From Mycolicibacterium poriferae (GTDB lineage Bacteria; Actinomycetota; Actinomycetes; Mycobacteriales; Mycobacteriaceae), in assembly GCF_010728325.1 (NCBI RefSeq), contig NZ_AP022570.1:496001-560000 (forward strand): a stretch of DNA of 64,000 nucleotides, written 5' to 3'. Shown here piece after piece: positions 35,411 through 38,127 of this stretch. Position 1 is the stretch's first letter. Each line of letters opens with the position of its first letter. The notes below the pieces were generated by a model. It had not been told where the DNA came from. It did not search any database and was given only the letters and a program-made list of their open reading frames with translations. Both the position numbers and the translations under genes were made by a program.

Positions 35411-38008
35411 TTACTTCGCCATGTTGGCGAACCGCGACAGGTGCAGCTGGTGCGCCACGGTCACGGTTCTCGTCGGGCCGGCGCGGTGCTTGGCCACGAT
35501 CAGATCCGCCTCACCGCCGCGGGGGTCGTCACTCTCGAACGCGTCCGGGCGGTGCAACAGGATCACCATGTCGGCGTCCTGCTCGATGCTGCCGCTCTCT
35601 CGCAGATCGGACAGCATCGGTTTCTTGTCGGTGCGCTGCTCCGGGCCTCGGTTCAGCTGGCTCATCGCCACCACGGGAACTTCCAGTTCCTTGGCCAACA
35701 GCTTGATCTGCCTGGAGAATTCGGACACTTCCTGCTGGCGGGACTCGACCTTCTTGCCGGAGGTCATCAGCTGCAGGTAGTCGATGACGATGAGACGCAG
35801 ATCCGCCTTCTGCTTCAGCCGCCTGGCCTTGGCCCTGATCTCCATCATCGTCAGGTTGGGCGAGTCGTCGATATACAGTGGCGCCTCGCTGATCTCACTC
35901 ATCCGCCGCGCCAACCGCGTCCAGTCGTCGTCGCTCATCCGGCCCGATCGCATGTCGGCGAGCTTGATCTTCGCCTCCGCCGAGAGCAACCGCATCACGA
36001 TCTCGGACTTACTCATCTCCAGCGAGAACACGATGCTCGGCAGATGGTTCTTGATCGAGCAGGACCGCATGAAATCGAGGCCCAGGGTCGAGTTGTGGGT
36101 CGGCACCATCGCTCGGCTGGCCAGGTACATGTGGTCGGCGTTGTCCACCTCGACACACCGCACCGGAACACTCGGGACCGGCCGGACGTCGGTGATGAAC
36201 CGGGAGTGCGACCGTGCTGTGCTGGCCGCGCGACGCTCTTTGTGTAGCAGCTCTTTTCGATGCAATCCGAAAACCTGGTCGGATGCGGAGAAGTTCACCA
36301 GATACGCCGTCGAGGAAAGCTCGCTTCGGCCGTTAACCGCCTTAGTGGCGACCTGGCACCGGTAGCCGAGTGACACGATCAGTTCGACGACGTCGGCGGA
36401 CAGCCGCCTGTTCGTCACCGTGAACTGGACGGTGCCACCGTTTGTCACGGTGCCGTCGGTATCAAGCAATCCGGCGAGCAGCGCGCGACGCTGACCCTCA
36501 GACGCTCGCAGGTACTGCAAGGGGATGTGCTTGTCCCCCAGCACCCCGAGGGTTCGCAGTCGCGCCTGGACGGTGCCCACCGCGTTACGGCAACGTTGGC
36601 ACTGCCGCAATCCGGAGGACGGTTTTCCGCATCGCGAGCACCTGGGAGGAGACACCGCCTCCGACACGAAACGCGCGCGTCCCCCGCACGAACGACCGCA
36701 GGTCCGAACCTGGCTCGTCTGCGGCACGAACTCCTTTCCACACACGACGCAGGCTCGCGCTGACGGTCGTTCATCCTCGGGCAGCATCAGACTGTAGCGA
36801 TAGAGCGCAGACGTGGATTTCTGAACGACTATGCCCTCCCCCTCGATGCGCATGACGATCTCGGGATCAGCCGTTGTGAGCTGGGCGCACGCGGTGGTCC
36901 CGTCACCCAACCAGGCGCCCAGTGTGTAGGGCGGCACCAACAGATCCTGTTCGGCACCTTGGATCGGCGCCGCATTGACGACCGAATGGTTCAGTCGACG
37001 ATCGGCGGTCGCACACTTCAGCGTGTCGGCGATCTCGCGGGTTGTCCGCACCGACGCGGGCACGTTCGGGTTCCTGCGCGACGCACGGGTGTCGGTCAGC
37101 CACTGGTGCTGCTCGTCAGCGACGATGACGGTGCCGTCGGAGAACTCGACTTCGTAGCACGGCCGCCCGACCATGACGTCGGTGGCCGCCACCACGCGGG
37201 TGGGCCGTCCGTCGGCGCCGATCAGCTCGTCACCGACGCGAACCTCACCCATGGTGGTCCAGCCGGCCGGCGTCGGGAGCGGCGTGTCCAGCGCCAAGGC
37301 CTTCCCCATACCGGGCCTGGCCGCGACGACGACCATCTGACCGGGATGCAGTCCGTTGGTGAGCTCGTCGAGTTCCACGAAGCCAGTCGGTACACCCTTG
37401 GAGATGCCACCCTGCGAGGCGATGGCGTCGATCTCGTCCATCGTGGGCTGCAGCAGCTCTTCGAGCGCCACGAAATCCTCGGCGGTGCGCCGCTCGGTGA
37501 CGTCGTAGATCTCGGCCTGCGCACGGTCGACGATGTCGTCGACGTCGGCGCCGTCGGCACCGGCGTAGCCGTACTGCACGACCCGGGTGCCCGCCTCCAC
37601 CAGCCGGCGCAGCAGCGCCTTCTCGCTGACGATCCCGGCGTAGTACCCGGCGTTCGCGGCGGTTGGCACCGTCGAGATCAGGGTGTGCAGATAGGGCGCG
37701 CCGCCCACCCGGCGCAGCAGCCCGCGCCGGTCCAGTTCGGCGGCGACGGTGACCGCGTCGGCGGGCTCACCGCGGCTGTAGAGGTCGAGGATCGCGTCGT
37801 AGACGAGTTGGTTCGCGGGACGGTAGAAGTCGCCGGGACGCAGCCGCTCGAGGACGTCGGCGACGGCGTCCTTGCTGAGCAGCATGCCGCCCAACACGGC
37901 CTGTTCGGCGGCGGGATCCTGCGGGGGCTGGCGGCCGAAGTCCTCGTTTGGGGGTGGTTCTGTGCTTGAACGTTCGCCCGACCGACCCAAGTCATCGACG
38001 ACAGCCAC
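35411..38008 (-). CDS. dnaB: Replicative DNA helicase DnaB, interrupted by an intein
   Basis: The replicative helicase, which unwinds DNA at the fork as a hexamer. The N-terminal primase-interaction domain is followed by the RecA-like motor. The Walker A loop (ARPGMGK then STLGLDF) is split by an intein; Walker B is LIVIDYLQLM. Without the intein and the leader the helicase is about 462 residues, normal for mycobacteria. The ORF is open to 38089, but the GTG at 38008 is preferred, with AGGAGGGGG upstream and the conserved VAVVDDL start. Upstream lie a promoter and three DnaA-box-like sites; the strand order places rplI upstream, with the intergenic region at 38009-38501. Confidence 0.97.
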   Translation of the reverse strand: MAVVDDLGRSGERSSTEPPPNEDFGRQPPQDPAAEQAVLGGMLLSKDAVADVLERLRPGDFYRPANQLVYDAILDLYSRGEPADAVTVAAELDRRGLLRRVGGAPYLHTLISTVPTAANAGYYAGIVSEKALLRRLVEAGTRVVQYGYAGADGADVDDIVDRAQAEIYDVTERRTAEDFVALEELLQPTMDEIDAIASQGGISKGVPTGFVELDELTNGLHPGQMVVVAARPGMGKALALDTPLPTPAGWTTMGEVRVGDELIGADGRPTRVVAATDVMVGRPCYEVEFSDGTVIVADEQHQWLTDTRASRRNPNVPASVRTTREIADTLKCATADRRLNHSVVNAAPIQGAEQDLLVPPYTLGAWLGDGTTACAQLTTADPEIVMRIEGEGIVVQKSTSALYRYSLMLPEDERPSARACVVCGKEFVPQTSQVRTCGRSCGGRARFVSEAVSPPRCSRCGKPSSGLRQCQRCRNAVGTVQARLRTLGVLGDKHIPLQYLRASEGQRRALLAGLLDTDGTVTNGGTVQFTVTNRRLSADVVELIVSLGYRCQVATKAVNGRSELSSTAYLVNFSASDQVFGLHRKELLHKERRAASTARSHSRFITDVRPVPSVPVRCVEVDNADHMYLASRAMVPTHNSTLGLDFMRSCSIKNHLPSIVFSLEMSKSEIVMRLLSAEAKIKLADMRSGRMSDDDWTRLARRMSEISEAPLYIDDSPNLTMMEIRAKARRLKQKADLRLIVIDYLQLMTSGKKVESRQQEVSEFSRQIKLLAKELEVPVVAMSQLNRGPEQRTDKKPMLSDLRESGSIEQDADMVILLHRPDAFESDDPRGGEADLIVAKHRAGPTRTVTVAHQLHLSRFANMAK
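36092..37300 (-). mobile_element. Class 3 DnaB intein with LAGLIDADG homing endonuclease
   Basis: 403 residues (264-666 counting from the upstream ATG at 38089) are inserted after the Lys of the Walker A motif and end with HN before Ser667. The first residue is Ala, not Cys or Ser. Trp330 (QHQWL), Cys645 (VRCVEV) and Thr664 (VPTHN) give the class 3 triplet. The two endonuclease motifs are LGAWLGDGTT (about 390-399) and LLAGLLDTDG (537-546), with Asp396 and Asp543/Asp545. Between them lie eight Cys in two clusters (447, 450, 464, 468 and 484, 487, 497, 500). Splicing should restore an intact P-loop; homing into intein-free dnaB is expected. Confidence 0.92.
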
Positions 38009-38127
38009 GCTGACCCGCACCCCCTCCTGAACGCGATCGAACGAACTTTCGAAGCAGCACGCCGCGACTGTAGATCCGGCCTCCGACATGTCCTCCGTGG
38101 AGACCTGAACCGATCCCGCGACGGATC

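Follow-up and report, generated by a model that had tools for sequence, protein, structure and literature searches.

A predicted zinc-finger module inside the LAGLIDADG endonuclease of a class 3 DnaB intein and its relatives

The dnaB gene of Mycolicibacterium poriferae is interrupted by an intein whose predicted homing endonuclease contains two clusters of four cysteines. The gene was analyzed within a 64,000-nucleotide window (positions 496,001 to 560,000 of contig NZ_AP022570.1), where the frame of 892 residues, with DnaB N and DnaB_C domains by Pfam, occupies positions 35411-38089 and the 403-residue intein positions 36092-37300; both lie on the minus strand, as do all features located below. 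We consider it likely that this is a dnaB intein with predicted class 3 splicing, in which a LAGLIDADG endonuclease carries two predicted zinc fingers in its first half that help it to bind its target for homing. The two clusters would fold as two zinc fingers with one zinc ion each, and the module may touch DNA beside the core site, adding affinity or specificity. The endonuclease would home into intein-free dnaB genes, and once most dnaB copies of a population are filled, the module would be among the first parts to be deleted.

The first LAGLIDADG motif, LGAWLGDG (DnaB residue 390 onwards, 36899-36922), contains the predicted catalytic Asp133 of the intein, and the second, LAGLLDTDG (DnaB residue 538 onwards, 36452-36478), the predicted catalytic Asp282. 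The DnaB frame matches the Pfam families Hom_end (24.6 bits, cut-off 21.1) and LAGLIDADG_3 (22.5 bits, cut-off 22.5), and the two motifs with one acid each and a two-fold alpha-beta fold identify the enzyme as a LAGLIDADG endonuclease. In the AlphaFold2 model of the intein, which has a mean predicted local distance difference test score (pLDDT) of 94.5, the first half runs through helix 124-133, strand 140-142, helix 146-154 and a beta-hairpin (158-161/168-172; together 36773-36943). The inserted finger module follows (intein about 178-242, 36575-36769), delimited by the model and by alignments and absent from the viral sister intein L227. The last helix of the first half (244-251) and the second half, which is PI-SceI-like by the model and by fold comparison, make up positions 36221-36574.

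A reading made from the DNA letters without database searches (the sequence-only reading) had described the clusters as CX2C-X13-CX3C and CX2C-X9-CX2C between the two motifs, and positions and spacings are exactly as it gave them. Cluster 1, C184-X2-C187-X13-C201-X3-C205 (Cys447/450/464/468 of DnaB, 36686-36751), has Cys201 and Cys205 flanking the start of predicted helix 203-212, and cluster 2, C221-X2-C224-X9-C234-X2-C237 (Cys484/487/497/500, 36590-36640), has Cys234 and Cys237 flanking the start of helix 235-242. Both may be zinc fingers of the treble-clef kind, in which a CxxC knuckle and short strands precede a second Cys pair at a helix start. A structure prediction had been suggested as a check; the AlphaFold2 model puts both clusters inside the first LAGLIDADG half, between its beta-hairpin and its last helix. 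The module sequence matches phrog_1271 (E 9e-5) and phrog_1333 (E 5e-6). Assignment to a named Pfam finger family was rejected, since the match to DZR_2 (21.8 bits) stays below the cut-off of 27.

A protein search gave 7995 scored candidates, 7975 of them with E <= 1e-5, and the best 120 were examined for the clusters. Both clusters are present in 116; the exceptions are P0084 with one cysteine changed, P0118 with a short deletion, and P0064 and P0116 without the module. Named genomes were scanned with the cluster-bearing intein as query. At least 542 stretches were confirmed, and the 80 that matched best were analyzed. All eight cysteines are present in 79 of these when the spacing of the second cluster is allowed to vary. 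The 79 come from Mycobacterium, Nocardia, Rhodococcus, Streptosporangium, Saccharopolyspora, Kutzneria and further genera, and in every one the intein occupies a DnaB-like Walker A site. A strict pattern matched both LAGLIDADG motifs in 66 of these 79, and because it requires near-exact letters the other 13 need not be broken. Being top matches to a cluster-bearing query, the best 80 say nothing about how frequent cluster-free inteins are. Over the finger region the closest named record among the matches listed is Mycobacterium sp. PO1 (99%). In the genome samples some match to the intein was found in 133 of 198 genomes of the genus, 140 of 251 of the family and 108 of 394 of the class; many of these matches cover only residues 1-70 and are probably mini-inteins.

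For cysteine counts we assembled 100 fetched loci plus those returned by searches. From 165 aligned rows 11 were dropped (L002, a copy of this intein; L035; the copies L057 and L076; the viral L107-L112; and L144), leaving 154 rows including the intein studied here. L035, outside these counts, is full-length with both clusters, and the 11 loci that yielded no intein when the rows were parsed (L001, L031, L091, L097, L113-L115, L150, L151, L164 and L174) enter no count. Eight of the cysteines are present in 90 rows, seven in 2, four in 6, one in 4 and none in 52. The stretch between the motifs measures 134-142 residues in all 92 rows with at least seven cysteines, and no segment of 130 residues or more lacks the clusters. 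Conservation in 116 of 120 relatives, in 92 of 92 full-length segments and in 33 diverse cluster-bearing rows, in which all eight cysteines are invariant down to 50% identity to this intein, excludes that the clusters arose by chance. A one-off fusion in this genome was rejected on the frequencies among the best-listed relatives and named loci. The sequence-only reading had regarded the fusion as unfamiliar for class 3 inteins and had named absence from close relatives as the finding that would speak against it. The clusters are present in close relatives, and the zinc-finger-like insert is real; what does not hold is any peculiarity to this genome, because in the samples taken an intein with an endonuclease at this DnaB site normally has the clusters.

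The intein comprises DnaB residues 264-666 and sits at GK|S of the Walker A loop, flanked by GMGK and STLGLD, between an N-extein (37301-38089) and a C-extein (35411-36091). It starts with Ala264 and ends with Thr664-His665-Asn666, followed by a +1 Ser; in intein numbering Trp330, Cys645, Thr664 and Asn666 of the DnaB frame are Trp67, Cys382, Thr401 and Asn403. The N-terminal splicing part (residues 1-76, 37073-37300) contains Ala1, Cys48 (codon 37157-37159), His65 and Trp67 (codon 37100-37102), and the C-terminal part (about 366-403, 36092-36205) contains Cys382 (codon 36155-36157) and Thr401-His402-Asn403 (36092-36100). Class 3 inteins are defined by a Trp in block B, a Cys in block F (F:4) and a Thr in block G (G:5) (PMC5050341). 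Here Ala1 stands in place of a Cys, Ser or Thr nucleophile, and Trp67, Cys382, Thr401, His402, Asn403 and the +1 Ser are all found, so that every residue named in the earlier signature (Ala first, Trp330/Cys645/Thr664) is confirmed. Fold searches with the whole intein model as query showed that the splicing part resembles the solved class 3 inteins 6bs8, 6rix and 6riy. The sequence thus fits a class 3 intein, as had been read from it, with close relatives of solved class 3 structure, and splicing by the class 3 route is predicted.

Both catalytic acids are intact in 90 of the 92 rows with seven or eight cysteines and in 5 of the 6 rows with four, compared with 30 of the 56 rows without clusters (Fisher p 2.3e-11 for 92 against 56). 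A tree-aware test on 17 independent pairs gave, on average, 6.2 pairs changing the same way, 0.2 the opposite way and 10.6 without difference (median p 0.03). Ala1, Cys48, His65, Trp67, Cys382, Thr401, His402 and Asn403, however, are identical in all 154 DnaB inteins. Absence of the module is thus associated with decay of the endonuclease and not with change in splicing residues, which suggests that the module goes with homing rather than with splicing.

These data bear on the possibility that the finger module senses zinc or the redox state and regulates splicing, thereby tuning DnaB activation. Mycobacterial DnaB splicing is reported to be reversibly inhibited by zinc (PMC7360933), and a Cys48-Cys118 disulfide is described to trap the class 3 intein DnaBi1 (PMC6195587), whose Cys48 is kept here. 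That disulfide, however, sits in the splicing domain of an endonuclease-free mini-intein, the AlphaFold2 model places the module in the endonuclease fold, and the eight splicing-domain positions never vary even though 56 of the 154 rows lack the clusters. We therefore regard such a sensor as unlikely, and a splicing role was rejected as the principal explanation on the constancy of these positions. The constancy of Cys48 also means that an oxidative switch of the DnaBi1 type may be shared by all 154 inteins.

Selection was compared by the ratio of nonsynonymous to synonymous substitution rates (dN/dS), in pairs that are not independent and with synonymous divergence (dS) of 0.7-1.0. Across 370 cluster-bearing pairs dN/dS is 0.34 in the module, 0.43 in the first half (intein 118-172), 0.31 in the second half and 0.19 in the splicing part; in 421 module-free pairs the second half goes up to 0.46 and the splicing part up to 0.23. 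The value of 1.7 for the module columns of the module-free set comes from few leftover residues and is meaningless. It is very improbable that the clusters have decayed and no longer bind metal or serve a function. Six of the 154 inteins do keep only four of the eight cysteines, yet all eight stand in 90 of the 92 full-length segments, the module dN/dS is 0.34, and loss proceeds by deletion and not by drift of the cysteines.

Viral relatives show what else can occupy the place of the module. The 101 distinct viral inter-motif segments comprise 75 short ones, 21 with a CxxxH...CxxC finger, 2 with a helix-turn-helix, assigned by hand from the sequence, 1 with a double finger (L207) and 2 long ones of other type; four loci (L216, L275-L277) remained unparsed. 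The two long ones (L191 and L218), sorted by script, resemble short CxRGH/CxxC fingers by eye. Also judged by eye, the viral inserts share one location, after the hairpin and before the last helix. A model of L186 (47 rows, mean pLDDT 89.5) has helices 183-198, 203-210 and 214-222 at this slot, with a pLDDT of 70-87 for the block, about 61 for the hairpin before it and about 50 for the stretch after it; the match of the viral helix-turn-helix insert to Pfam HTH_58 reaches only E 0.05. The two helix-turn-helix rows group as one clade in a tree of 74 rows, on which the CxxxH fingers require 3-4 changes. By the geometry of I-CreI, the strand before the slot presumably ends toward the outer part of the DNA-binding saddle, so that a module there would lie close to flanking DNA.

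We lean, by a narrow measure, toward regarding the junction of hairpin and last helix in the first half of class 3 inteins as a plug-in slot for DNA readers, through which exchange of modules would let one family of homing enzymes reach new sites. The slot would hold tandem zinc fingers in actinobacterial DnaB inteins; in viral ones it would be empty or hold a helix-turn-helix, a double finger or a single finger of the CxxxH/CxxC type. The sharper DNA recognition proposed for the module gains indirect support, since the clusters tend to occur together with an intact endonuclease and since, in viral relatives, other modules likely to bind DNA occupy the same place. The clusters might instead be a purely structural staple that holds an enlarged first LAGLIDADG half without DNA contact; eight invariant cysteines with variable residues between them are as compatible with a structural zinc site as with one that binds DNA. 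To this we assign a small chance, because most viral segments (75 of 101) lie between motif-like patterns without any insert, different modules including a predicted helix-turn-helix occupy the same place, and the module is strongly basic in this intein (+10).

A quick tree of 159 rows, computed without the insert columns, requires 30 changes of module presence, 15 of them forced by starred branches. The more careful tree (74 rows) unites all DnaB inteins from bacterial genomes in one clade (100/98), with the module-free viral L227 as sister (100/99), and the DnaB intein of Brevibacterium phage Rousseau (L295), likewise insert-free, falls outside it. The simplest reading, and the best fit to the trees, is that the module was gained once, on the branch leading to the actinobacterial DnaB inteins, and then lost separately at least a dozen times; this direction comes from the outgroup, as the change counts alone give none.

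Several observations weigh against a module that serves target binding. The independent-pair test is weaker than the Fisher test, its p spanning 0.002 to 0.625, and 30 cluster-free inteins keep both acids. Two of the inteins without clusters, L128 and L152, keep both acids and a near-complete first half, so that the module may not be essential, and two cluster-bearing rows with Arg for Cys184 keep both acids as well. In the aligned deletions the ends are ragged and the beta-hairpin is mostly removed too, and finger loss and loss of core parts are thus partly one event; moreover, the module-free loci were chosen by hit pattern and not randomly. First-half dN/dS falls from 0.43 to 0.37 without the module, contrary to simple decay. 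The insert-free viral segments count here too, although the parse demanded motif-like patterns on both sides, and some of the counted losses would not be needed if the module had been regained by gene conversion.

The relatives P0064 and P0116 (DnaB of 807 residues) are near-identical dnaB alleles without finger module and hairpin, P0064 at 98% on both sides of the gap. Of the 13 residues after the junction 7 differ, a pattern that may point to exchange instead of a plain deletion. Such pairs of nearly identical alleles, one with the module and one without, allow its role to be tested directly.

Further observations concern other inteins and the surroundings of the gene. After block B and ahead of the endonuclease, the class 3-like inteins L156-L161, L144 and L207 (486-554 residues) have very roughly 85-190 extra residues, which may form a further accessory domain. 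L144, from a related genome, lies in the Walker A loop of what we recognized as an FtsK-like ATPase and has both LAGLIDADG motifs and no clusters. Small viral proteins (L113-L115) carry two tandem CxxCGxxF...CxxxC-like motifs much like cluster 1 and are possible kin of the module. Four Nocardia DnaB proteins of 1261-1299 residues (P0060, P0075, P0106 and P0118) have an additional Intein_splicing domain and probably two inteins per helicase, and a contig labelled as a Bifidobacterium breve metagenome-assembled genome (L332) contains a mycobacterial-type DnaB intein and is probably mis-binned. A PF14890 profile search of the M. poriferae genome missed the present intein and gave a single match elsewhere, below the cut-off, in what we take to be recA. 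A second intein of this genome (L001, G000:C1, around 2832620) lies in a gene likewise recognized as recA; with Cys as first residue it is class 1 by sequence. The neighbours of dnaB, which from their sequences we take to be rplI, rpsR, ssb and rpsF, stand in the usual mycobacterial order.

The class 3 reading fits this intein; the novelty lies in the finger module, which is widespread, and in the slot that it occupies. Titles and abstract openings, covering few subscription papers and no intein databases, yielded no bacterial intein with a zinc-finger-like module. DnaB-b inteins were known in about 17 eubacterial species by 2006 (PMC1635734) and are said to 'lack endonucleases', a statement made for the mycobacterial set of that study (PMC5050341). 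Our data speak against a general reading of it, as a large bacterial family at that DnaB site has an endonuclease with finger-like clusters. The closest solved systems, M. smegmatis DnaBi1 and MchDnaB-1 (6bs8, 6own, 6rix, 6riy), share the class 3 residues and are 67-69% identical in the splicing domain by structure alignment, and DnaBi1 occupies the same P-loop site (PMC6195587). The solved chains have only 139-146 residues, DnaBi1 being an endonuclease-free mini-intein according to the same paper, whereas the present intein has 403 with endonuclease and clusters.

If the fingers read DNA, they would be an example of DNA-binding modules inserted within the LAGLIDADG fold, bearing on the retargeting of homing inteins and on the evolution of meganuclease specificity. 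Accessory domains are reported to modulate cutting by archaeal VMA inteins (PMC8966425). The module, a modular insert tied to an intact endonuclease, may belong with such domains (ACD/DRR), which are extra modules that modulate DNA recognition and cutting. Compared with PI-SceI of the yeast VMA intein and other LAGLIDADG inteins, it is Cys-rich and lies inside the first LAGLIDADG half, a position that differs from the published PI-SceI case. The yeast HO/WHO proteins are also intein-like LAGLIDADG proteins with zinc fingers, and HO cutting needs zinc and finger residues (PMC7282813). Their finger is C-terminal, and exteins and motif G are described as lacking in the same source, whereas here the clusters are internal and exteins and the Thr-His-Asn end are present; this intein therefore falls outside the definition of the HO/WHO intein-zinc finger fusion. 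The zinc modules of phage HNH endonucleases (phrog_1271) and of phrog_1333 are similar in sequence, but here the module resides in a LAGLIDADG enzyme. Class 3-like inteins also occur in phage terminases and related phage proteins, hosts that were labelled by recognition, PHROG matches and phage record names. These inteins have the same class residues and an endonuclease, and in some of them the place of the module is taken by a CxxxH/CxxC finger or a predicted helix-turn-helix; they differ in carrying another module or none and in their host protein.
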